Shown here: piece after piece, positions 51,221-63,354 of the stretch
Position numbering within the stretch: the first letter of the stretch is position 1
How the letters are laid out: the number at the start of each line of letters is the position of its first letter
DNA from: an uncultured Planctomycetota bacterium
GTDB lineage: Bacteria > Planctomycetota > Brocadiia > CAIUPP01
Assembly: GCA_903901045.1 (NCBI GenBank)
Contig: CAIUPP010000060.1
Coordinates: 132,661-196,660 of the forward strand
DNA length: 64,000 nucleotides
Reading direction: 5' to 3'
Notes under the pieces: model-generated
Told to the model about the DNA's origin: nothing
The model's database searches: none
Seen by the model: only the letters and a program-made list of their open reading frames with translations
Made by a program: the position numbers and the translations under genes

Positions 51221-51829
51221 TTACGGCGCGCTGAACAGGGACTTCCCGCTCTCGTTGGTCAGGGTGAGAACGGGCTTCCCGCTGGCGTCCATGCCCAGGT
51301 CGGCGCGGCGCTTCATCTGCTGATCGAAGAGACTGAGGTCCGGGCCCCCCTCGGCCGGTGCGCTCAGCCATGCGCGCTCTTTCTGGTTCTTATCCAGGAC
51401 GACGAAGCCCGACTGCCCGTTCTCCAGCACGCACGCGCCGGCGCGGAACTTCCCATCCTTGTCGAAGATCATGAAGTCCGGCCGTCCGTTGGCTTCCCGC
51501 AGCAGGGCGCCGTAATTCCCTTTCTGGTCGCACAGCCCCAGCACGGAAGCGCCGCCGGAGGTCACGCACAGCCGGGCGCGCGGGGTGTCCTTCAGATCAA
51601 AGAGCGTGAGCGCAGCCAACCCGTCGGGTGTGACGCCCAGGGAACCGCGCACCTTGCCCGCATTATCCACCAGGCTCAGGCTCGATACGGTGAGCGCCGG
51701 CGCTTTTCCAGCCACCGCGGCCTCCTGCGCGCCCGCGCCGGAGCGGGGAAACGCCCAGTCCGCCAGCCTGCCGCCGATGAATCCGGCCAACAGGCAGCCC
51801 GCTACGAGGAGACAATCCCGCTTGGTCAT
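51221..51829 (-). CDS. Membrane-anchored beta-repeat protein
   Basis: A 202-aa protein; AAGGA before the ATG at 51829 sets the start. A single N-terminal membrane helix (LLVAGCLLAGFIGGRLADW) anchors it. The rest is a tandem of roughly 23-30-residue units with the pattern L-x-D-x-x-G-K-x-R-x-x-L: SLVDNAGKVRGSLGV, LFDLKDTPRARLCV, LCDQKGNYGALL, IFDKDGKFRAGA, VLDKNQKERAWL, LFDQQMKRRADLGM. It is predicted to form a beta-solenoid on the outer side. No family function known; likely structural or adhesive. Confidence 0.7.
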   Translation of the reverse strand: MTKRDCLLVAGCLLAGFIGGRLADWAFPRSGAGAQEAAVAGKAPALTVSSLSLVDNAGKVRGSLGVTPDGLAALTLFDLKDTPRARLCVTSGGASVLGLCDQKGNYGALLREANGRPDFMIFDKDGKFRAGACVLENGQSGFVVLDKNQKERAWLSAPAEGGPDLSLFDQQMKRRADLGMDASGKPVLTLTNESGKSLFSAP

Positions 51830-51940: not shown

Positions 51941-54043
51941 TCAGGGCAGCACGGCCCCGGCTCGAAGCGGGACATAAGCGGAGCCTGTGGCGGCGCGGTA
52001 TTCGACCGTCAGTCCGGCTTCGCCGCCCCATTGGAAGTAATCCAGCAGTATCTTGTGCGGTCCGGCGGAAAGCCGGATGGGTTTGCTCTCTTCGGGATAG
52101 GACATGCTGTTGATGCCGCCCCGATCCAGCACCAGCTTGTTGTCGACGTACAGCCGGCAGCCGTCATCCACGCGAACGCGGAAGAGAATGTCGCGCTCGC
52201 CCTGTGCCTGCCACTGACCGATGAATACGACGCGCACGTTATGCGACGCCCCTATGTCCATCCCATCCGCGGTGGCCAGGTTGCCTGCCGTGATGGGAAT
52301 CGCCAGCCTGTCCGTGGTCGAATCAAGGGTCGGGGAGGCGCTGAAGGTCGGCGATAGAGACGTTACCTCCGCCTTGCCCGGATAGACCAGAAACCGGATA
52401 TCGTGAGCGGGGGGCGGCTCGGCAAATGGATCGAGCACCGTCTTCCGTTGCGGCATGGGTTGCCATGTCGCGACGAACAACCCTCCCTCCTCCGCCGCAA
52501 TCTTGAACTCGCCGGTCGCCAGCAGGCGCTTGATCACCGGCATGCACTCGGCGTTCAGGGTGGAACGATCTATGAAAATCGCGCGCACGCGATCCGATGG
52601 GGGGAGATTCTCTCCCGCAATGCCCCAGTAGGACGCCTTGTAGGGATTGGGGAACATGTAGATTTCGTTGCGGTGCGCCAGGTGCGGTACCAGGTTGTGC
52701 GAGACGGAAATCGGTATATCGCGGTCCGCCGGCAAATAGGCCGCCAGGCGTTTGAACCGGGCATCATAGGGGGTGTTGCGCAGTTGTTGGTAGAGCGCCA
52801 CCGGCCGCCTGACGCTGTTGCAGGCGGGCAGCCGACTCCAGTTGTTGTTGGCCCACGCGGATGCCGCCAGAATGCTGACAGCCCAAAGGCCCATGACGAT
52901 CCTGCCCCATTTACCCCTGCCCCCCAGCCACGCAAGTCCCAGCGCCGCGGCAGCGAACAGCATCGGGAGGCTCTGGAAATTGTAGTGGTAGTCAATTGAG
53001 ATGAGATAGCCGTTGCCACTGAGCACGTTGACGCCGAAGGCCGGCAATGCCGCCAGGAGCAGCAACGGATTAAGCACGGACGCGAACAGCAGCGGGAAAC
53101 AGAGCTTCCACACATAAGCGCCCACCGTGGCGTTGATGAACGCATGCTGGTAGAAGGAAGGGACCCATTTCTGAGCCCAGAACTGGCTGAACCAATATCC
53201 ACCGGAGAATCGGAAGAATCCATACCCGTTGAAGTACGGCAGGAATACTTTCATGCACAGGACAAACCAGACGGCGCTGAGCAGCATCGTAGCGCCACCG
53301 ATGCGCCAATTCTGCCGCAGGAGAAGCCAGAAACCGAGCATGAAGACGGTCAGGGCGACGTCCTCTTTGCACAACAGGGCGATGCCGATGGCAGGCCAGT
53401 ACCATTTCCAGCTTCGCGCGTCGGCGCGCTCCACCGCCCAGAGCAGGAAGGGAGCCGCCAGCACCTCGGGGTGAAAATTCTCAAGGTTCATATTCTGCAA
53501 GGCCGGTGAAAGCAGCCAGGCCGCGGCCAACAGCAAGGCCAGGAGGTAGCTGCCGCTCCTGCGGTGGGCGAGCAGGGCCAGCGGGATAGCCGCGGCGGCC
53601 AGCGCAAGGCTCTGCAAAACGAGGATCGTCTCGATGCGTGGCGCAACCCAGTACAGCGGCGCGATCAGGACCATGATGAACCAGCAATGGTCCCCCCAGA
53701 TGTTCAAGCCGCGGATGGTATTGAAAATGCCCCGCCCGGTTGCCAGTTTCCAGATGGCCTGGTCATGGATGCCGATATCATAGGCGGACATTCCAAAGTT
53801 TCTGAATCCCAGTATGGAAACAGCCGAGAAGAGTACGGTGTAGGACAGAACCATAAGCGCCAGGATCAGTATCGCCCACCGGGCTTGAAACCCGCAGTCG
53901 GACATCGGGGCAGGAGTGGGAAGCTCGGAGCAGGGGGGTGGATTCAGGCTCTTGGCCAGAGTGACAAGCCGGGACAGCCACCCGCTGCAGCGGGCAGTCT
54001 GCCCGCGTCCGCTGTCGGCGGGTTGCTCAGGCGTTTCGGTCAA
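51941..54043 (-). CDS. DUF2079 multi-pass membrane protein with C-terminal PA14-like domain
   Basis: A 700-aa protein. Residues of about 50-460 are a polytopic membrane region of the DUF2079 type: YDIGIHDQAIWKLATGRG, GDHCWFIMVLIAPLYW, NLENFHPEVLAAPFLLWA, CKEDVALTVF. This family resembles GT-C glycosyltransferases with a lipid-linked donor, inferred from fold. The last ~140 residues are a PA14-like beta domain (FRVRVDDGCRLYVDNKLVLD, GPHKILLDYFQWGGEAGL), presumably outside. PA14 domains bind carbohydrate. It overlaps the 1290-aa gene by 4 nt, so they are coupled. Confidence 0.75.
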   Translation of the reverse strand: MTETPEQPADSGRGQTARCSGWLSRLVTLAKSLNPPPCSELPTPAPMSDCGFQARWAILILALMVLSYTVLFSAVSILGFRNFGMSAYDIGIHDQAIWKLATGRGIFNTIRGLNIWGDHCWFIMVLIAPLYWVAPRIETILVLQSLALAAAAIPLALLAHRRSGSYLLALLLAAAWLLSPALQNMNLENFHPEVLAAPFLLWAVERADARSWKWYWPAIGIALLCKEDVALTVFMLGFWLLLRQNWRIGGATMLLSAVWFVLCMKVFLPYFNGYGFFRFSGGYWFSQFWAQKWVPSFYQHAFINATVGAYVWKLCFPLLFASVLNPLLLLAALPAFGVNVLSGNGYLISIDYHYNFQSLPMLFAAAALGLAWLGGRGKWGRIVMGLWAVSILAASAWANNNWSRLPACNSVRRPVALYQQLRNTPYDARFKRLAAYLPADRDIPISVSHNLVPHLAHRNEIYMFPNPYKASYWGIAGENLPPSDRVRAIFIDRSTLNAECMPVIKRLLATGEFKIAAEEGGLFVATWQPMPQRKTVLDPFAEPPPAHDIRFLVYPGKAEVTSLSPTFSASPTLDSTTDRLAIPITAGNLATADGMDIGASHNVRVVFIGQWQAQGERDILFRVRVDDGCRLYVDNKLVLDRGGINSMSYPEESKPIRLSAGPHKILLDYFQWGGEAGLTVEYRAATGSAYVPLRAGAVLP

Positions 54044-57000
54044 TCCCCCAGCTCCTTAAGGCGGTCGGCCGCGGATGCCGCGAAGGGGCTCTGCGGGAAG
54101 TCCGTGCGCAGCCGGCGATACGTTGAGATGGCTTCCTGCTTGGCGTCCGTCTTCTGGAGACATACGCCGATATGGTAGAGCGCCTCCGGCACGAGCGGGC
54201 TCCGGGGATAGTTCGTCACGAGCAGTTGGTAGACGGAGAGGGTTTCCTTCCACTCCTTCTGCTTGAAATGGCAAAGCGCGGCGCACGCCAGCGCCTGGGG
54301 GGCGGCGCTGTATTCGGGATGTTTCGTGTAGATCTCCTCGAAAATCGGCAGCGCCTCGTCCAGACGGTCCTCATTGAACAGGGACAGGGCCATCCCCATC
54401 CGCTGGCCGATCTCCTCCGGCAGTTTCGTCGCCTCCTGCCCGCTGAGCGCGCCATGCTCGCGCAGCCGGTCGGCGGCGTACCGCGCCATGGGGGTGTTCG
54501 GATAGGTTTCCCGCAGCAACTTCAGTTGCGCGATGCCTTCCTGCTCATGGCCGCTGCGCAGGAGGCAGATGCCGATGTGGTAGTGCGCGTCCGGCGTCCA
54601 GTGGCTGTCAGGATAGCGCTTCAGCATATCCTCGAACGCGGCAATCGCGCCCGCGTCGTCCTGCTGAAGGTAGTAGCAGATGGCGATGTAGTAGGCGGAG
54701 TCCTGCCCCAGCGACGTTTCCGCCGCCGAGTCGATGACCTTGCGGAATCCCTGCCGCGCCTGCTCGAACTGTTTCGCATCCTTCAGCAGAACGGAGTGGT
54801 TGAACAGCCGGTGCGGCTCGCGGGTGTATATGCGGTAGCAGGCGAATCCGCCCGCCAGGAACGTCCATGCAAGGAGCGTGGCCAGGATTGTCCAGCGCAC
54901 CCGGGGGGAGAAGTTCATGCTGATGGGCGGCTCAAGCGACTCCGGGACTCCCAGGCGCGCCGCCATGAGCGACCACGCCGTGCGGTGGCCCCTCCAGGGC
55001 AGCGGGATGTTGAGCAAAAGCACCAGAATTCCCGTGATCGTCAGCGCCGCGCCGATTCTTTCGGGGGCGCGCGCCCCGAAGTACAGCCGCACATGCTCCT
55101 GCTGCGGGTAGATGAGCATGAAAGAGGGGGAGACGAGATAGATCCCATCCGCCCCTTCCACATGCCAGTCCGGATGATAGGACATCTTGACCAGCAGCGG
55201 CTTGTGGAGCCAGTTCGTGTCGATAAGAATCTCGCCGTCCCGGATCGTCTCGGTGATCTTGCACGAACTCGTATCGATCGGTATCCGGGGGAGTTTATCC
55301 ATCGTGCAGGCGGTCGCCTGGAAGTGCTTCTGGTCCTCCGGCGACGGGTCGGAGATGAAAACGAGGTGCCGATCCAGAAGTTCGTCGTGCGTGAACCAGC
55401 GGTGCGAATCGACCTTCCAGTTGTTCGTCAAATAGAGGATGGGCTCGTTCTCGAGCGGGACGACGTATCGGTCCTTGTTCGTGGTGAGCTTCCACAATTC
55501 GTATTCCCCGATGGTCTGCTGCCATCGGTACTCGGGGACCCTGCGGATGGCCGCTTTGGCCTCGGCGCTACGGAGGATCAAATCGCGGACGTTGAACATC
55601 TCTAGGTGCGGCCGCGCGCGAGCGAAGTCCATGGTGGCGTACGTGTACTGCGGGAAGGGGCAGGATTTCTCCAGCGAAATCTCGGACTGGATGTAGAACA
55701 CGAAGGGCGAACTGACGGAGGCTTGCATGTAGAGTCCTTCGAGCGTCGCCCGCCCGGCGAACAGCGGCAAGGACTCGAATGCGCGGGTCGTGCCGAACAC
55801 GTTGTGCTCGGCGGAGTGCTCGTACACCACGCGGGGGTCCTGGAAGCTCCCGCGCAGGGCCAAATTGATCTTCTCGAAGGTCGGCCATGCTTTCTTGGCT
55901 TCGAATCCCTCGTAGTTCCACTTGCACCAGTCCGGCACCGGGGCGACCTGCGGCGTGGTCCACGCCAGCGTGGCGACCGTCGCCACAAGCAGCAGCGCCC
56001 AGCTCAGCCCCCACCGGCGCAGCGCATGCCCCAGCCAGCCGAGCGCGAGCGCCGCCATGAGGCAGGCCGCCAGTTGCGCGTAGGGGACGTAGCGAATGTC
56101 CACAACGCCCAGCTTTGGCGCGGCAACGAAGAGCGCGCCGGCCATGACCAGACCGAACGTCAGGTAGGCCAGCACATGAAGGACTGACGCCCCGCCGCGG
56201 CGGAAGCGGGCCATTCCGTAGATCAGCAGTCCGATGCCGCCCGCCCCGGCGAGAACCAAAATGGGAATGAGGATGAAGGGGATGACTTCGCTGACGGAGT
56301 AGATCGTCCATGCCGTGTGGTAGGGGGTGGTCCACTTCGAGTACGCGAGCAGCGGTACGAGCCAGAACGCCAGCAGGCAGAAGCCCAGCGCGTAGACCTT
56401 CCCGAGGTAGACCACGCGCCGGGTAAAACCATTCGGGGTGATGAGGAGGAACGCCGACATCGCCTCGGCGAATAGCAGCGTGTAGCCGTGGCTGAACCCC
56501 ACCAGGAACACCAGGAAGGCGTTGAGAAGCACCCCCCGGTTATCCATGCAGCCGCGGTAGAGGCTTCCGAGCAGAATCAAAGAGAGCGCCATGCTCAGGC
56601 TGTAGGAGAACTCGCCGGCGAGCGTGCTGAGGAGGTTCCCTCCCCACATCGAGTTGGCGGTGTTGAACAGGAAGGTCAGCATGAACAGTGCGCCGATGGC
56701 CGGCCCGGGGAAGGGGGTCCGCAGGGAGCGCAGCATGCTGTAGGCGGCGATGGGGAGCAGGAACGTGCCGAAGAGCGTCACCAGCTTGAACGCCACCTGC
56801 AGCGGCATGACGAGGTCGAGCAGGCACATGCTCAGGAAGGGGAGCGGGAAGTACATTTGCAGAATCGGGAACCCGGCGTAATTCCCCGGCGTCCAGAAAC
56901 TGATTCTGCCGGAAGGGAGCAGGACGTGGCGGAGGTAATCGACGGTGTAGTAATGGGAGGCCGTGTCCCCGCCGGTCGCGGTCGTTGCGGTGATCAGGTA

Positions 57001-57912
57001 CTCGGGTCGCAACTGCGCGAGGATGAAGCCTTCAATGGCGACCAGCGCGAGAACGTCGATGGTCAATTGAGGCCAGCATCCCGGTTCGGTGGCGCGCTGC
57101 ATGAGGGAGCGTGTGCGTCGGCTCAGAAAGGCGCCCAGCAGCCCCGCCAGGAGCAGAATTCCCGCCGCTATTTCGACAGTGGGCCAATGTGCGCGCTGCG
57201 CCAATTGGGGCTGGGCGTTGTTTGCAATGGGAACGCTGATGGCGGAATCGGTGAGCGCGTGCGCGCCGTCGAGATCGTATTCCACGACGAAGAAGAGGGC
57301 GTAATTACTCCCCCCGGCGGCGGAACGATTCTTCAAAGTGAACGGGGCGTCTGCCTGGCCGTTCTTGAAAGTGACCTTCTGCGACGGCGGCTCGACCGAA
57401 AGGTCCGCGGGGCAATGACAGGTGATCGTTGCGTCCGTAATGCGCGGGTTGCGCGTGGCGGCGAAGGCGTGCACTTCTCCCCACGCCTTTCCCGAGCCGC
57501 GGGTGACGGAGAGCGTTACCTCGGAAGGGGGCGCGCCGGAGGTTCGCGCCGTGGCCAGCACGGCGGTTGAGCAGATCGCTCCGTCCGGATTGCGGTAGCG
57601 AATATCGAGGTAAAGCGGGAAAGTGCCCTTGGCGTCGGCGGGGCGCGTGAAAGAGAGCTTGGCGACTTGCGATTGGCCGGCGGAGATTTTCTCGATGTGG
57701 GGGGCGGTCCCGGTCTGCCCCATGAACCGGGCGGATACCACCACGTCCTCGGCCGTGTCCGTGCCCTGGTTCACGAGGGTGAAGGTGGCGTCAGCGGACT
57801 CGGCGCTGACCGAGATCGTTGAAGTCACCGAAAGCGTTATCTCGCCCGCCCAGGCGGTGACGCATGCGATGAGCAGGGTTGCAGCCGCCAGGATCAGCCG
57901 GGAGATACTCAA
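54040..57912 (-). CDS. Giant membrane protein: NEW3/CARDB-like domains, PTPS-related polytopic region, C-terminal TPRs
   Basis: A 1290-aa protein starting at TTG with GAGGAG about 9 nt ahead. A signal peptide (LILAAATLLIACVTAWA) is followed by two beta-sandwich domains of alpha-galactosidase NEW3/CARDB type (TISVSAESADATFTLVNQGT, NGQADAPFTLKN; about 23-235). A polytopic region (about 240-680) resembles PTPS-related membrane proteins, which share a GT-C-like fold, with GGDTASHYYTVDYLRHVLLP and YFPLPFLSMCLLDL. A large soluble loop and a further helix follow. The last ~240 residues are TPR repeats (DSAYYIAICYYLQQDDAGAI, EALYHIGVCLQKTDAKQ). It is likely an envelope glycan assembly protein; its substrate is unknown. 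Confidence 0.75.
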   Translation of the reverse strand: MSISRLILAAATLLIACVTAWAGEITLSVTSTISVSAESADATFTLVNQGTDTAEDVVVSARFMGQTGTAPHIEKISAGQSQVAKLSFTRPADAKGTFPLYLDIRYRNPDGAICSTAVLATARTSGAPPSEVTLSVTRGSGKAWGEVHAFAATRNPRITDATITCHCPADLSVEPPSQKVTFKNGQADAPFTLKNRSAAGGSNYALFFVVEYDLDGAHALTDSAISVPIANNAQPQLAQRAHWPTVEIAAGILLLAGLLGAFLSRRTRSLMQRATEPGCWPQLTIDVLALVAIEGFILAQLRPEYLITATTATGGDTASHYYTVDYLRHVLLPSGRISFWTPGNYAGFPILQMYFPLPFLSMCLLDLVMPLQVAFKLVTLFGTFLLPIAAYSMLRSLRTPFPGPAIGALFMLTFLFNTANSMWGGNLLSTLAGEFSYSLSMALSLILLGSLYRGCMDNRGVLLNAFLVFLVGFSHGYTLLFAEAMSAFLLITPNGFTRRVVYLGKVYALGFCLLAFWLVPLLAYSKWTTPYHTAWTIYSVSEVIPFILIPILVLAGAGGIGLLIYGMARFRRGGASVLHVLAYLTFGLVMAGALFVAAPKLGVVDIRYVPYAQLAACLMAALALGWLGHALRRWGLSWALLLVATVATLAWTTPQVAPVPDWCKWNYEGFEAKKAWPTFEKINLALRGSFQDPRVVYEHSAEHNVFGTTRAFESLPLFAGRATLEGLYMQASVSSPFVFYIQSEISLEKSCPFPQYTYATMDFARARPHLEMFNVRDLILRSAEAKAAIRRVPEYRWQQTIGEYELWKLTTNKDRYVVPLENEPILYLTNNWKVDSHRWFTHDELLDRHLVFISDPSPEDQKHFQATACTMDKLPRIPIDTSSCKITETIRDGEILIDTNWLHKPLLVKMSYHPDWHVEGADGIYLVSPSFMLIYPQQEHVRLYFGARAPERIGAALTITGILVLLLNIPLPWRGHRTAWSLMAARLGVPESLEPPISMNFSPRVRWTILATLLAWTFLAGGFACYRIYTREPHRLFNHSVLLKDAKQFEQARQGFRKVIDSAAETSLGQDSAYYIAICYYLQQDDAGAIAAFEDMLKRYPDSHWTPDAHYHIGICLLRSGHEQEGIAQLKLLRETYPNTPMARYAADRLREHGALSGQEATKLPEEIGQRMGMALSLFNEDRLDEALPIFEEIYTKHPEYSAAPQALACAALCHFKQKEWKETLSVYQLLVTNYPRSPLVPEALYHIGVCLQKTDAKQEAISTYRRLRTDFPQSPFAASAADRLKELGD

Positions 57913-58122: not shown

Positions 58123-59436
58123 ATGGCCCGCATGGATTTCCGCGCGCTCTGCGGTTTCTACGAGAGCGAACTATTCGACCACATCCTCCCTTTCTGGATG
58201 AAACGGGGGATTGATTCGGAGCAGGGGGGATACTTCACCTGTTTCACCAACTCCGGCGACCGGCTCCTTTATCCCCACAAATTCACCTGGTCGCAGGGGC
58301 GCTTCCTCTGGACGCTTTCGCGGCTCAACCGTACGTTCAAAGGTCGCCGTCCTGCGAAAGAAACCCGGGACTGGCTGGCGCAGGCTGCGCATGGGGCGGA
58401 ATTCCTGATGAAACATGCGCGCCTGCCCAATGGCAACTGCGCCTTCATCCTCTCGCGCGAGGGACGGCCGATCCTGCTCGACGCGCAGGGGAACCCGCGC
58501 GAGGCGGGACCGGATGAGGCTTACGACAGCAGCGTGTACGCCGACCACTTCGTCGTCTATGGGATGGCTGAATACGCCATGGCCTCCGGCGATGCGCGGG
58601 CGTGGCGTTACGCCGCGGATCTCTATGAGTCGGCCCGCGGCCGCCATCTGCAGGCGGTCTATCGCTCGGATCCCTACCCGGTTCCGGCCGGATACGAAGC
58701 GCATGGCCGCCCGATGATCCTCATGGAAACTGCGCACGAAATGGCGCTGGCGGCGGAGCAGTTCGGCGACAGCCGGGCGGGCGTCTATCTTTCCGAGGCG
58801 CAGAGGTATATGGCCGAGGTGATGGACAAGTTCCGCGATCCCGCCACGAACCTTATGACCGAAATGTGGTCCGGCGATCCGAAGAAGCGCGGGACGATGC
58901 TGGGCGGCTACGTCAACCCGGGGCATGCGCTGGAGTGCATGTGGTTCGTCTGCCACCTGGCCCGGCGTGTGGGGGCCCCCGAGCGCATCGCGCAGGCGAT
59001 TCAGGTGATCAAAGCGAACTGCCGCGCCGGCTGGGATGAGCAGTTCGGGGGCTTCTTCCAGTTCGTCGACCGAACCGGCGGCGCTCCGCGCGGGCCTGTG
59101 CCGCCTGAACTGGAAAACGCCGAGATGATCCGCAAGTTGCGCGGGAACTGGGACAACAAGCTCTGGTGGCCGCATTCCGAGGCGCTGTACATGCTCCTGC
59201 TGGGATATGAACTTTCACGCGACAGCGAATTGCTCGACTGGTACTGGCGCGTCCACGACTACACGTTCCGCACCTTCCCCAACTCGGACCGCGGGATCGG
59301 AGAGTGGATTCAGATTCGCGCGCGGGATGGGTCGCCTGTGGACAAAGTGGTCGCGCTGCCGGTCAAGGACCCGTTCCACATCACGCGGTCGTTCATCCTC
59401 TGCGAGGAGCTGCTGCGACAGGCTCGTCCGGACTGA
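58123..59436 (+). CDS. AGE/RenBP-family sugar 2-epimerase
   Basis: A 437-aa (alpha/alpha)6-barrel protein of the N-acylglucosamine 2-epimerase family. Seen: ELFDHILPFWMKRGIDSEQG at the start, PHKFTWSQGRFLWTLSRL, YADHFVVYGMAEYA, VNPGHALECMWF with a conserved His, and LWWPHSEALYMLLLGY with the second catalytic His. GGAG lies near the ATG. The family interconverts GlcNAc and ManNAc, or glucose and mannose. Its 3' end overlaps the convergent murQ end by 44 nt. Confidence 0.9.
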   Translation: MARMDFRALCGFYESELFDHILPFWMKRGIDSEQGGYFTCFTNSGDRLLYPHKFTWSQGRFLWTLSRLNRTFKGRRPAKETRDWLAQAAHGAEFLMKHARLPNGNCAFILSREGRPILLDAQGNPREAGPDEAYDSSVYADHFVVYGMAEYAMASGDARAWRYAADLYESARGRHLQAVYRSDPYPVPAGYEAHGRPMILMETAHEMALAAEQFGDSRAGVYLSEAQRYMAEVMDKFRDPATNLMTEMWSGDPKKRGTMLGGYVNPGHALECMWFVCHLARRVGAPERIAQAIQVIKANCRAGWDEQFGGFFQFVDRTGGAPRGPVPPELENAEMIRKLRGNWDNKLWWPHSEALYMLLLGYELSRDSELLDWYWRVHDYTFRTFPNSDRGIGEWIQIRARDGSPVDKVVALPVKDPFHITRSFILCEELLRQARPD

Positions 59437-60334
59437 TCTGCTCGCTGGCGCGGCGCAGGGAGCCGCCGGAATGCTTCAGCAGGGCGGTGGCCTCGACGCA
59501 GGTGAGCTTCCGCCAATGCATCAGGATGGCGGTCTTGGTTGAGCCCTGCGCGGCGTCGAGGAGGAGCTTGGTGCGGGCGCGGGAAACGCCCGTGGCCTCC
59601 CTGACGATGCGCTCGGCACGGTCGCGCAACTTCCGATTGGTGGCCCTCAGGTCCACCATCAGATTGCCGTACACCTTCCCCATTCGAATCATCGCTGCCG
59701 TGGTCAGCGTGTTCAGGACGAGTTTGGTCGCCGTCCCGGCCTTCATCCGCGTGGAGCCAGTGACGATTTCCGGCCCGACGACGGGGTTGATGATGATATC
59801 GGCCCGGATATGCGCTTTGGCCTCGGGGGCGCAGGTGACAAAGATCGTCCGCGCGCCGATCCGGCGGGCGTATTGAACCGCGCCGTTGGCGAAGGGGGTG
59901 AGGCCGCATGCGGCGATGCCGACGACTACGTCCTCGGGCGTCAGCCGCTTCTTCTTGAGCGCTGCGGCCCCCGCCGCGGCGGAATCCTCGGCCCCCTCCG
60001 CGGAGCGCACCAGCGCGCGCCGCCCGCCCGCGATGACCCCCTGCACCATGGAGGGACTCGTCCCGAAGGTGGGGGGGCATTCCGAGGCATCCAGCACGCC
60101 TAGCCGGCCGCTCGTCCCGGCCCCGACATAGAAAAGCCTGCCCCCCCGGAGGAAGGCGTCTACGATCAGATCGACTCCTTCGGCGATGCGCGCGCGTTCC
60201 CGGGCGACGGCGGGGAGGACTCGCCGGTCCTCGGCGTTGATCAGCGCAACGATTTGGCGCGTGGAGCGGCGGTCGATATCCGCGCTCCGGGGATTCCGCT
60301 TCTCCGTCGTCAGTTGAGCGCGCGCCTTCAGCAT
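59393..60334 (-). CDS. murQ: N-acetylmuramic acid 6-phosphate etherase
   Basis: A 313-aa MurQ; the ATG at 60334 sits inside the anmK end. The signature set is GAGTSGRLGVLDASECPPTF (sugar isomerase fold with the catalytic Glu), VVGIAACGLTPF, GPEIVTGSTRMKAGTATKLV and the C-terminal helices. It removes lactate from MurNAc-6-phosphate to give GlcNAc-6-phosphate in cytoplasm. The partner anmK makes its substrate. The last residues (SPDEPVAAAPRRG) are antisense to the epimerase gene end. Confidence 0.95.
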   Translation of the reverse strand: MLKARAQLTTEKRNPRSADIDRRSTRQIVALINAEDRRVLPAVARERARIAEGVDLIVDAFLRGGRLFYVGAGTSGRLGVLDASECPPTFGTSPSMVQGVIAGGRRALVRSAEGAEDSAAAGAAALKKKRLTPEDVVVGIAACGLTPFANGAVQYARRIGARTIFVTCAPEAKAHIRADIIINPVVGPEIVTGSTRMKAGTATKLVLNTLTTAAMIRMGKVYGNLMVDLRATNRKLRDRAERIVREATGVSRARTKLLLDAAQGSTKTAILMHWRKLTCVEATALLKHSGGSLRRASEQISPDEPVAAAPRRG

Positions 60335-61512
60335 GTTCCTCTCACGATCTTGCCGAGCACGACCGCCCGCGCCGCACCCGTGGCGGATGGCACGTTGTTC
60401 GCCATCCCTCGAATCGTCGCGTAGGCGAGAATGGCGAAGGAGATGGCCTCCTTCGCGTCCGCATTGATGCCGAACGCGTCCATGGGCAGCACGCGCGCCG
60501 GGTGCAACTCCTTCTCCAGCATGGCGACCAGCGTCCGATTGCGCGCTCCGCCGCCGCACAGAATCACCTCATCCACAGGGCCGGGGAGGTAGCGGCGATG
60601 GGCGTTGGCGATACTCCCCGCCGTGAAAGCCGTCAGCGTGGCAAGGATGTCGGGCGGGGCGATTCCCTTTCGTTTCGCCCTGGCGCAGAATGCGTCGGTG
60701 AATTGAACCCCGAACTCCTCGCGGCCTGTGGTCTTGGGGGGACGCCGCGAGAGGAACTTGTGCCGCATCAACTCGGCTAGGAGGGGTTGGATGACGCGTC
60801 CCCGGGCGGCCAGCTTGCCGCCGACGTCGTAGGTCTGCCGGCCGCGCGTCAGGAGGAACGTGGCGCGGTCCATCATCATATTGCCCGGCCCGGTATCGAA
60901 AGCGATCACGTCGGTCACGGAGCAGGCGGCGGGGAGATAAGTGAGGTTCGCAATGCCGCCGATGTTCTGCAGGGAGCGGTTGCGCGTCTTGTGGCGGAAG
61001 AGGAAATGATCGGCGAACGGGACCAGCGGCGCGCCTTCTCCCCCGGCGGCGATGTCGCGCGTCCGGAAATCCGCAATCGTGGTCACGCCGGTCCGCTCGG
61101 CGATGACGGCAGGCTCCCCGATTTGCAGTGTTGATTTGAAGACCCGGCCCCGGAACCTCCTTCCGCGCGGCAAGTGGCAGACGGTCTGACCGTGAGATCC
61201 GATTGCGTCGATGGAGCTCAGGGGCAGGCCGTGCTTCTTCGCTAGGCGCGTCAGGGCGTCGGCGAAAAACTCGCCGAGGAGGAAATTGAGGTGGCACAGA
61301 TCGTCGACCCGCGCCCTCCTGGGATCGAAAAGCGCGAAAATGCGGCGGCGGACGGATGGGGGATAGGGGAACATATCAAAGGCCAGCACGCGGACGCCGC
61401 GCCTGCCGATCTCCACGATGGCGGCGTCAATCCCGTCGGCGGAGGTGCCGGACATCAACCCGGCGACGCGCAACGTGGGCTTGGCGGCAAGTGTGGAAAG
61501 GCATTCGCTCAC
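60328..61512 (-). CDS. anmK: Anhydro-N-acetylmuramic acid kinase
   Basis: A 394-aa AnmK of the actin-like kinase fold starting at GTG, 8 nt after GGAG. Seen: GLMSGTSADGIDAAIVE (18-34), SHGQTVCHLP, DFRTRDIAAGGEGAPLVP, NIGGIANLTYLP, DTGPGNMMMD and GGGARNRTL. It hydrates and phosphorylates 1,6-anhydro-MurNAc with ATP. It overlaps murQ by 7 nt, so the pair is one recycling operon. Confidence 0.97.
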   Translation of the reverse strand: MSECLSTLAAKPTLRVAGLMSGTSADGIDAAIVEIGRRGVRVLAFDMFPYPPSVRRRIFALFDPRRARVDDLCHLNFLLGEFFADALTRLAKKHGLPLSSIDAIGSHGQTVCHLPRGRRFRGRVFKSTLQIGEPAVIAERTGVTTIADFRTRDIAAGGEGAPLVPFADHFLFRHKTRNRSLQNIGGIANLTYLPAACSVTDVIAFDTGPGNMMMDRATFLLTRGRQTYDVGGKLAARGRVIQPLLAELMRHKFLSRRPPKTTGREEFGVQFTDAFCARAKRKGIAPPDILATLTAFTAGSIANAHRRYLPGPVDEVILCGGGARNRTLVAMLEKELHPARVLPMDAFGINADAKEAISFAILAYATIRGMANNVPSATGAARAVVLGKIVRGTC

Positions 61513-61733
61513 TGAGGCGACTCCGCGTGAATAACAGAGGAGCGGTCACGGCCAGAATCGTAATCGTTCCCCGGGGTATTTGCAATTCGGAAGAAAGTGT
61601 CCATGGAAGGTTCGCGTGATCCTTCGCAAGGTTCAGTGTGCGCCTGGCGCTCGCGATTCAGAACTTGCCATGTAGCTCCGAAACGAGTACCTTCTTGAGC
61701 GAAATGCATTTCCGGTGGGAGGAATGGAACTCA

Positions 61734-61769
61734 ATGCGAATGCGCATGCGGGCCATTGAACATGGGTGA
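61734..61769 (+). other. Possible short upstream frame ahead of the symporter
   Basis: GGGAGGA (61717-61723) is followed by two tiny frames: ATG at 61724 (11 codons, stop at 61759) and ATG at 61734 (MRMRMRAIEHG, stop at 61769, overlapping the symporter start). GGAGG is too near the first ATG but suits the second. The symporter's own ATG has no site. One frame may be a translated leader coupled to the symporter. Speculative. Confidence 0.3.
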
Positions 61770-63354
61770 TCTGGTCGTTGCCGAGAAGATGGCGGCGGGC
61801 CTCGGGTTGCTGGATGTGGCCGTGGTGGCCGCAGCGGTCGGCGCGCTGTTCATCATCGCATGGTTCAGCGGGCGCGAGGAGAAGGACACGGCGGACTTCT
61901 TCGTCGCGCGCAGGAGCATTCCGGCGGTCATCGCCTGCCTCTCCTTCGTGGCAACCGAGGTCAGCGCGGTCACCATCATCGGCGTCCCATCGACGGGGTT
62001 CAAGGAGAACTGGCAGTACCTGCAGTTCTTCCTGGGGTCGGCGGCGGCGCGGATACTGATCGCGTTTCTCTTCATCCCTGTCTTCTTCAAATTCAACGTC
62101 ACCACGATCTATGAATTCCTCAGGCACCGCTTCGGCGCGGCGACGCAGTACAGCGGGTCGGCTTTCTTCTTCGTCACGCGGCTGATGGCCTCGGGCGTCC
62201 GGCTGTACGCCGCTTGCCTTGGGGTGGCGGTAATCCTCGGCTGGGACGCCTGGCGGACCTGGGACCTCTACGGCTGGCACGTGAACTCGGGCCTGATGGC
62301 GGCGCTGGCGTTGTTCACGATGTGCAGCATCGTCTTCATCGCGTTCGGCGGCATCAAAGCGGTGGTATGGACCGGAGCGTTCGAGACGACGGTCTTCTTC
62401 CTGGCGGGCGGCGCGGTCGCAATTTACTTGTGGAAGAACATTCACCTCGACGCCGGCGCGGCGTGGCAGGTGGCGAGCGACGCAGGAAGGACAAGCCTGC
62501 TGAACACGGGAGCGCAGTATTTCGCGCCGGGGACAAGCTGCTGGGACGGTTTCGTGAAGACGTTCTCCGATCCGAATACCCTCTGGGCGGCGACGCTGAA
62601 CGCATTCTTCGTGGGGCTGTGCGTCTTCGGCACGGACCAGGAATTGATGCAGCGGCTGCTGACGGTGAAGACCCGGCGCTCCAGCCAGAAAGCGCTGATC
62701 GGCACCATCCTCGCCGCCTTCCCGCTGGTCACACTCTACCTGGGGCTGGGCACGCTGCTGTTCCTGTACTATCACCAGCATCCCACGCTGCCGCTGCCGG
62801 ACAATCCGGACAAGATACTCTCGCACTTTGTCGTCACGGTGCTGCCGACGGGGCTGAAGGGGCTCGTGCTTGCCGCCGTGGTGCTGGCGAGCATCGACTC
62901 GCCGCTAAGTTCCCTCTCCTCCTCCTTCGTCACGGACATTTACCGTCCGTTGATTCGCAAGGATGCCTCCGAGCGGCATTACCTCTGGGTGTCGCGCTGC
63001 GGCATCGTCGGGTTCGGCATCCTGCTGGCGATCCTGGCCCTGGCGTTCAGCGCGTTGACGGGCATCCTCTGGCTGGCCTTCAAGGTCATTGCGGTGACCG
63101 GGGGTAGCACGCTGGGGATATTCCTGCTCGGGATGGTGACGAAGCGGCGCGGAAACACGGAGAACGTGATTGCCATGGTCGATAGTGCGGCGGTGACGGC
63201 GTCGCTGCTGCTGCTGTCGGAGTTGAAGATCATTTCGCTGGGGTGGAGCTGGCTCATCGTGGTCGGCACCATCCTGACCTTCGTTATCGGATATGCACTC
63301 GGTAGGCCCGCCGCCGAAAGTCCGGCGGCGCCCTCTCAGAAGGAAGCTTCGTAG
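61762..63354 (+). CDS. Sodium/solute symporter (SSS family)
   Basis: A 530-aa polytopic transporter. I choose the ATG at 61762; a TTG at 61756 is the other option. Around 13 hydrophobic helices are seen. Family features: DFFVARRSIPAVIACLSFVA, TEVSAVTIIGVPSTGF, TIYEFLRHRFG (the SSS region before helix 4), TDQELMQRLLTVK (the conserved intracellular motif) and SSLSSSFVTDIYRPL. It is expected to import a sugar, amino sugar or related solute with Na+. The next gene encodes a GH20-like enzyme, which suggests an amino-sugar substrate. Confidence 0.9.
   Translation: MGDLVVAEKMAAGLGLLDVAVVAAAVGALFIIAWFSGREEKDTADFFVARRSIPAVIACLSFVATEVSAVTIIGVPSTGFKENWQYLQFFLGSAAARILIAFLFIPVFFKFNVTTIYEFLRHRFGAATQYSGSAFFFVTRLMASGVRLYAACLGVAVILGWDAWRTWDLYGWHVNSGLMAALALFTMCSIVFIAFGGIKAVVWTGAFETTVFFLAGGAVAIYLWKNIHLDAGAAWQVASDAGRTSLLNTGAQYFAPGTSCWDGFVKTFSDPNTLWAATLNAFFVGLCVFGTDQELMQRLLTVKTRRSSQKALIGTILAAFPLVTLYLGLGTLLFLYYHQHPTLPLPDNPDKILSHFVVTVLPTGLKGLVLAAVVLASIDSPLSSLSSSFVTDIYRPLIRKDASERHYLWVSRCGIVGFGILLAILALAFSALTGILWLAFKVIAVTGGSTLGIFLLGMVTKRRGNTENVIAMVDSAAVTASLLLLSELKIISLGWSWLIVVGTILTFVIGYALGRPAAESPAAPSQKEAS

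Follow-up and report, generated by a model that had tools for sequence, protein, structure and literature searches.

The described systems that most resemble the genes considered here are Gtr O-antigen glucosylation, which comprises GtrA, GtrB and a serotype-specific glycosyltransferase of the GT-C fold, and the GT136 pentofuranose systems. Our subject is a pair of overlapping genes in a stretch of 64,000 nucleotides, referred to as the window, from an uncultured Planctomycetota bacterium of the class to which the anammox Brocadiales belong (positions 132,661 to 196,660 of contig CAIUPP010000060.1, i.e., contig 60 of a draft genome of 4.77 Mb). One gene encodes a DUF2079 (PF09852) protein with a PA14 domain and the other a PTPS_related (PF10131) protein with two immunoglobulin (Ig)-like beta-sandwiches and an array of tetratricopeptide repeats (TPRs); we refer to them as the DUF2079-PA14 and PTPS proteins. 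Together, they are probably two GT-C glycosyltransferases (class A type) that act at the outer surface of the cytoplasmic membrane and form the transferase pair of an extracytoplasmic glycosylation system of the Gtr type. This assignment, in which two GT-C enzymes would transfer polyprenyl-phosphate-linked sugars outside the cytoplasm, is made because of what is known about Gtr systems (PMC11127046) in combination with the folds, residues and gene linkage presented below. The likeness to the Gtr and GT136 systems is that a GT2 synthase, a GtrA-like flippase and a GT-C enzyme are encoded together in relatives of the locus, and that some GT-C enzymes of the known systems also bear a carbohydrate-binding module (CBM). 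Unlike these systems, the operons described here contain two unrelated GT-C families as well as PA14, Ig-like and TPR modules, and in the window the donor genes are not adjacent to the pair.

Individual parts of the two proteins have other known counterparts. Among solved folds, those of ArnT and the PMT family are closest to the DUF2079 domain, and ArnT uses a lipid-phosphate-linked donor, but the DUF2079-PA14 protein differs from ArnT in sequence (about 14% identity), in its C-terminal PA14 domain and in that no lipid A gene context was seen. For the PTPS membrane domain, the nearest solved fold (Z 22) is that of AglB, STT3 and PglB, from which it is set apart by the lack of an STT3 family match, by a WNYEG motif that only loosely resembles WWDYG, and by its GT2 neighbours. 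In TMTC1-4, the animal O-mannosyltransferases, a GT-C domain likewise precedes an array of TPRs that lies on the extracytoplasmic or lumenal side (here, the topology is estimated from hydropathy), while the PTPS_related family, the additional Ig-like domains, the lack of a DUF1736 match, the second GT-C partner and the bacterial operon are all unlike the TMTCs. The arabinosyltransferases EmbA/B/C and AftD are also GT-C enzymes with extracytoplasmic modules that bind carbohydrates, but they belong to different families and organisms and carry CBMs in the place of TPR, Ig-like and PA14 modules. The PA14 fold with its calcium- and sugar-binding Asp-Asp pair is known from the MpPA14, MhPA14, Flo and Epa lectins, in adhesins rather than joined to a membrane glycosyltransferase.

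Gtr operons are already known, and so are GT-C enzymes that carry lectin modules and GT-C enzymes that carry TPRs. In the open-licence papers to which the literature search extended, where absence is no proof, we found no description of an operon in which GtrB and GtrA are combined with two GT-C families that bear PA14, Ig-like and TPR modules, and no paper on DUF2079 or on PA14 combined with GT-C; an earlier note, made from the sequence of the window, had likewise been aware of no described pair with this layout. The assignment would link two Pfam families without an assigned function, PF09852 and PF10131, to extracytoplasmic glycosylation, from which the name of the latter ("6-pyruvoyl-tetrahydropterin synthase related") points away. 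The operon found in relatives is compact, as it encodes both transferases along with a donor synthase and a flippase-like protein, and is testable as a whole in a laboratory host. Because the arrangement of GT-C and TPRs parallels that of the TMTCs, for which catalytic activity of the human proteins had not been shown directly (PMC7801869), a bacterial relative could also help to test how TPRs choose an acceptor.

Predicted folds and conserved residues

Structure comparison of the predicted models assigns the membrane domains of the two proteins to the GT-C fold, in line with what the earlier note had proposed. The DUF2079 domain matched ArnT with a Z score of 16.5, and the PTPS domain matched AglB with 22.2 and ArnT with 18.5; according to the comparison tool, a Z of about 13 can be of little significance in the case of helical bundles. 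The GT-C matches of both proteins exceed this value and span most of the domain. Further matches of the DUF2079 domain were STT3 and ALG12 (Z 16.4 for both) and Pmt1 (15.4), and those of the PTPS domain were STT3 (22.0), AftA (20.7), DPY19 (18.4) and AftD (18.1). The alignment with AglB (7e9s) comprised 467 residues at a root-mean-square deviation (rmsd) of 4.1. The AlphaFold2 models had a predicted local distance difference test (pLDDT) score of 88.2 and a predicted template modelling (pTM) score of 0.83 for the DUF2079-PA14 protein, and of 89.8 and 0.76, respectively, for the PTPS protein, for which residues 1-1160 of 1290 were modelled.

GT-C enzymes share an acidic residue that is conserved in their first extracytoplasmic loop, and this hallmark is present in both families, as D89 in 15 of 15 DUF2079 proteins and as D316 in 42 of 42 PTPS proteins. 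Equally invariant in these sets, drawn from several phyla, are H119 and E227 of the DUF2079 proteins and E434 and R607 of the PTPS proteins.

The PA14 and TPR domains that the earlier note had seen were recovered by the Pfam scan, in which the DUF2079-PA14 protein scored 218 bits with DUF2079 and 29.8 bits with PA14 (PF07691; cut-off 24), and the PTPS protein 137.6 bits with PTPS_related and 98 bits with TPR_6, all of these scores being far beyond chance. The TPR region also exceeds the NCBIfam cut-off for YbgF (TIGR02795, 117 bits vs 90), and residues 1028-1160 matched BamD (Z 18.2) and YbgF (Z 17.8). The sandwiches, described earlier as NEW3-like, are borne out as a fold, i.e., two modelled Ig-like beta-sandwiches, but not under that family name: Pfam gave no NEW3 match in the PTPS protein of the window, the orthologue from a sister genus has a sub-threshold NPCBM_assoc/NEW3 match (E 0.0013), and a stand-alone sandwich homologue matches CARDB barely above threshold. 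In the PA14 domain, D626-D627 aligns with D136-D137 of MhPA14 (6m8m), which is the D-cis-D pair of the calcium and sugar site (PMC6650083; for this Asp pair in PA14 lectins see also PMC8092209). The modelled domain thus keeps a candidate calcium/sugar Asp pair.

A simple hydropathy estimate of the PTPS topology puts the sandwiches, which follow a signal peptide, on the outside. Two helices come next, then D316 and a long soluble region, both outside, and finally two further helices and the TPRs, again outside, such that the sandwiches and the TPRs share one side with the candidate catalytic loop. In the proposed arrangement, the sandwiches and TPRs of the PTPS protein and the PA14 domain of its partner face the side of the candidate catalytic residues. 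Directly after the last helix of the PTPS GT-C bundle, W662, W665 and G669 are invariant in the window protein (WNYEGFE, 55903-55935, residues 660-670) and in 41 homologues. A relationship to STT3 by sequence was considered and set aside as weak: the Pfam scan gave no match to STT3 (PF02516), and an hhalign profile comparison with seven archaeal STT3 sequences, just two of which contain the exact WWDYG, gave a probability of only 0.9%.

The pair and its neighbours in other genomes

Genome contigs were scanned with a profile, and 80 of 146 PTPS loci were kept, which stem from Desulfobacterota, Planctomycetota, Pseudomonadota, Acidobacteriota, Omnitrophota, WOR-1/Saganbacteria, SAR324, and DPANN or Altiarchaeota; 82 loci were analyzed. 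A DUF2079 gene lies near the PTPS gene in 10 of the 82 loci; in six of these it has a PA14 match (loci L013, L025, L027, L028, L039 and L044), and partners with other C-termini are found in L023, L061, L079 and L080. The two genes adjoin or are at most four genes apart in L013, L023, L025, L027, L028, L039, L044 and the additional contig L132, and they also occur together in L061, L079 and L080, i.e., the pair is conserved beyond the window, on which the earlier proposal depended. The same layout is found in L013, from a sister genus of the same family, with 52% and 54% identity to the window pair. In genome G413 the contig with PTPS (L034) stops behind GtrA, and another contig opens with the DUF2079 gene. 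The DUF2079 protein of L079 (12735-15155) ends in a weak PA14 match and a further stretch, and that of L023 (6682-8871) in an unassigned stretch; the C-terminal module of DUF2079 proteins seems to be exchangeable.

Full-length members of the DUF2079-PA14 family (E <= 1e-60) were found in 1 of 392 Planctomycetota and in 2 of 395 genomes of the phylum of genome G417, and all three carry PTPS; one further, weaker match in the latter set (G601) is a shorter DUF2079 protein. The PA14-bearing partner was seen only in genomes that hold PTPS (Planctomycetota, Desulfobacterota and Proteobacteria); most positive genomes other than these three were reached via PTPS and are therefore not independent tests of co-occurrence. 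Phylogenetically, the PA14-bearing DUF2079 proteins form a single clade (100/99), and their PTPS partners all fall within one 19-row clade (100/100), which also includes members without DUF2079. Because the pair is rare in Planctomycetota and close to Desulfobacterota sequences, the data suggest that it may have moved between phyla by transfer.

Genes for GT2 enzymes are about 14 times commoner close to PTPS (20.4% of genes at most two genes away vs 1.5% beyond five), and the same trend is seen for stand-alone sandwich proteins (11.3% within two genes vs 0% beyond five) and for B12-radical-SAM proteins (6.7% vs 0.3%); the 82 loci share ancestry, and the counts are approximate because open reading frames (longest non-overlapping) and clusters (single linkage) were called ad hoc. 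In 22 of the 82 loci the sandwich part is fused to PTPS, and in 32 it has a gene of its own nearby; such fusion hints at a joint function with the GT-C enzyme. In L027, L028 and L132 the gene order is PTPS, GtrB-like GT2, GtrA and DUF2079-PA14, where the genes of L132 overlap by a few bases and GtrA (PF04138) scores 83 bits in L027 and 80 bits in L028. Judged by gene content, these three are predicted operons of the Gtr type for extracytoplasmic glycosylation, and each encodes two GT-C enzymes. GtrA-related genes are also found in L034, L044 and L132, with none in the window or in most loci. A GtrB-like GT2 lies near PTPS in most loci, and in L013 a DPM1-like GT2 immediately precedes PTPS. Candidates for the polyprenyl-phosphate-sugar synthases that the earlier note had advised to look for nearby are represented in relatives, where a synthase-like GT2 and a GtrA flippase-like gene adjoin the pair, but not in the window. 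A B12-binding radical SAM protein (PF04055 and PF02310) is encoded near PTPS in 23 of the 82 loci, often directly after it (e.g., L011, L026 and L040).

Proposed mechanism and alternative explanations

In the proposed mechanism, a GT2 enzyme (GtrB/DPM1-like) would load a sugar onto polyprenyl phosphate on the cytoplasmic side, a GtrA-like protein would help to flip the product, and the two GT-C enzymes, possibly in physical contact, would pass the sugar, or two successive sugars, to an acceptor outside. Most likely, one enzyme would hold this acceptor through its Ig-like sandwiches and TPRs, and the other through its PA14 lectin. The GT-C folds and the conserved pairing support the envelope glycosylation suggested in the earlier note; polysaccharide assembly, its other suggestion, becomes one of two options for the acceptor, the second being an envelope protein.

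Several observations weigh against this mechanism. Within the window there is no GT2 of this kind, no GtrA and no radical-SAM partner, and the donor must therefore come from elsewhere in the genome. In 72 of the 82 loci PTPS has no DUF2079 nearby, and the two are thus not obligate partners. The PTPS part fits an oligosaccharyltransferase best and not a monosaccharide transferase, where differences in Z do not settle the type of donor, and no activity of PF09852 or PF10131 is described in the literature searched. Supply of the donor in trans is possible because, in the same genome, a GT2 gene precedes a PTPS paralogue (L012) and contig 10 (L131) carries one GtrA with an adjoining GT2. In L012 (6567-10210) the GT2 is DPM1-like, and the paralogous PTPS-TPR protein that follows lacks Ig-like sandwiches and a DUF2079 partner.

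Two kinds of acceptor can be considered. If it were an exopolysaccharide, which we consider quite possible though short of probable, both enzymes would add side-chain sugars to the polymer, either ahead of its export or in the course of it, and the polymer would be bound by PA14 and the sandwiches, much as the CBMs of EmbC, AftD and GT136 may do. PA14 is a sugar-binding fold, GT-C enzymes with CBMs have been published (PMC11127046), and polysaccharide export genes stand beside some homologous loci (SLBB/Poly_export and Wzz in L067; the same gene clusters in L011, L040 and L074), but none was recognised beside the inspected DUF2079-PA14 pairs, and TPRs bind proteins more often. An envelope-protein acceptor is a more tentative option, in which the TPRs would hold the protein, as may those of the eukaryotic TMTC1-4, and the second enzyme would extend or repeat the modification. 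The layout of a GT-C domain with TPRs on the lumenal side matches the TMTCs, PF10131 is a significant HHpred match of the human TMTCs (E about 1e-14 to 1e-16) with full-length prokaryotic homologues noted (PMC7801869), and the PTPS TPRs resemble those of YbgF and BamD, which are protein-binding envelope TPRs; yet a TPR fold alone does not name its ligand, and the TMTC-specific DUF1736 loop had no match in the PTPS protein in a Pfam scan up to E 1. Rather unlikely is a more specific arrangement, i.e., a two-enzyme complex in which the Ig-TPR GT-C enzyme would hold a protein acceptor and start the glycan, the PA14 GT-C enzyme would read the nascent sugar and extend it, and co-encoded GtrB and GtrA would provide the donor. 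If true, this complex would be the functional equivalent, in bacteria, of the O-glycosylation of proteins by TMTCs, with product sensing built in.

Two other explanations concern the enzymes themselves. The PTPS protein could move a whole glycan from a lipid carrier, as an oligosaccharyltransferase does, which would leave only the DUF2079 protein to use a polyprenyl-phosphate-linked sugar. Its top fold matches, AglB and STT3 (both with Z of 22), and the invariant W-x2-W-x3-G stretch, located about where STT3 and oligosaccharyltransferases have WWDYG, are in favor of this explanation, but it is unlikely in view of the STT3 comparisons by Pfam and hhalign described above and of the main PTPS neighbours, DPM/GtrB-like GT2 genes, which make single-sugar donors. 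It is highly improbable that one or both proteins lack enzymatic activity and instead scaffold or assist other glycosylation enzymes: there are inactive members of the GT-C superfamily, e.g., PIG-U (PMC7801869), but the candidate catalytic residues are invariant across 42 and 15 sequences from several phyla.

Layout of the locus

Both open reading frames are present where the earlier note had located them (Table 1), but the overlap between them reads TTGA and not ATGA as had been claimed. In the DUF2079 frame, residues 1-46 show no conservation, and orthologues start near M47 (53905); because of this, the overlapping TTG start, and hence translational coupling of the two genes, is plausible but not proven.

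Table 1. Positions in the window of the two genes and their predicted features
Feature	Position	Strand	Basis or remark
DUF2079-PA14 GT-C protein gene	51941..54043	-	700 amino acids from TTG, 654 if M47 is the start
PA14 lectin-like domain, residues 545-698	51950..52411	-	trehalose-bound PA14 6xa5, Z 17.5, rmsd 2.0, 150 aligned
D626-D627, PA14 Asp-Asp calcium/sugar pair (candidate)	52163..52168	-	invariant in 7 orthologues
GT-C catalytic membrane domain (predicted), residues 53-529	52457..53887	-	ArnT 5f15, Z 16.5, rmsd 4.8, 385 aligned
D89, acidic residue after first helix, likely catalytic	53777..53779	-	D in 15/15 DUF2079 proteins
TTGA overlap of PTPS stop (TGA) with candidate DUF2079 start (TTG)	54040..54043	-	read from sequence
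AAGGAG	54052-54057	-	8 nucleotides upstream of candidate DUF2079 TTG start
PTPS_related GT-C protein gene	54040..57912	-	1290 amino acids: signal peptide, two Ig-like sandwiches, GT-C domain, TPRs
Probably extracytoplasmic array of TPRs, residues about 1033-1290	54043..54816	-	TPR_6; TIGR02795, 117 bits
GT-C catalytic membrane domain (predicted) and start of soluble part, residues 267-813	55474..57114	-	AglB 7e9s, Z 22.2
D316, acidic residue after first GT-C helix, likely catalytic	56965..56967	-	D in 42/42 homologues
Second Ig-like beta-sandwich, residues 132-228	57229..57519	-	modelled strands; 7p4l vs residues 131-233, Z 10.3
First Ig-like beta-sandwich, residues 27-123	57544..57834	-	modelled strands; transglutaminase Ig-like domain, Z 11.1, rmsd 2.6, 96 aligned
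Signal peptide / N-terminal hydrophobic segment, residues 1-22	57847..57912	-	hydropathy; low-confidence helix 3-20 in model

The neighbours in the window (AGE epimerase, MurQ-like, AnmK and Gfo/Idh genes) were rejected as a clue to function, as they belong to separate units or are encoded on the opposite strand. A gene on the reverse strand (51224-51829), immediately downstream of the pair and perhaps co-transcribed with it, encodes a 202-residue protein that has a hydrophobic segment at its N-terminus and matches no Pfam family. Upstream of the pair, positions 58123-62826 encode an AGE-family epimerase, a MurQ-like etherase (SIS), AnmK and a 397-residue protein without a Pfam match, a gene set that resembles those of amino-sugar or muramyl sugar recycling.

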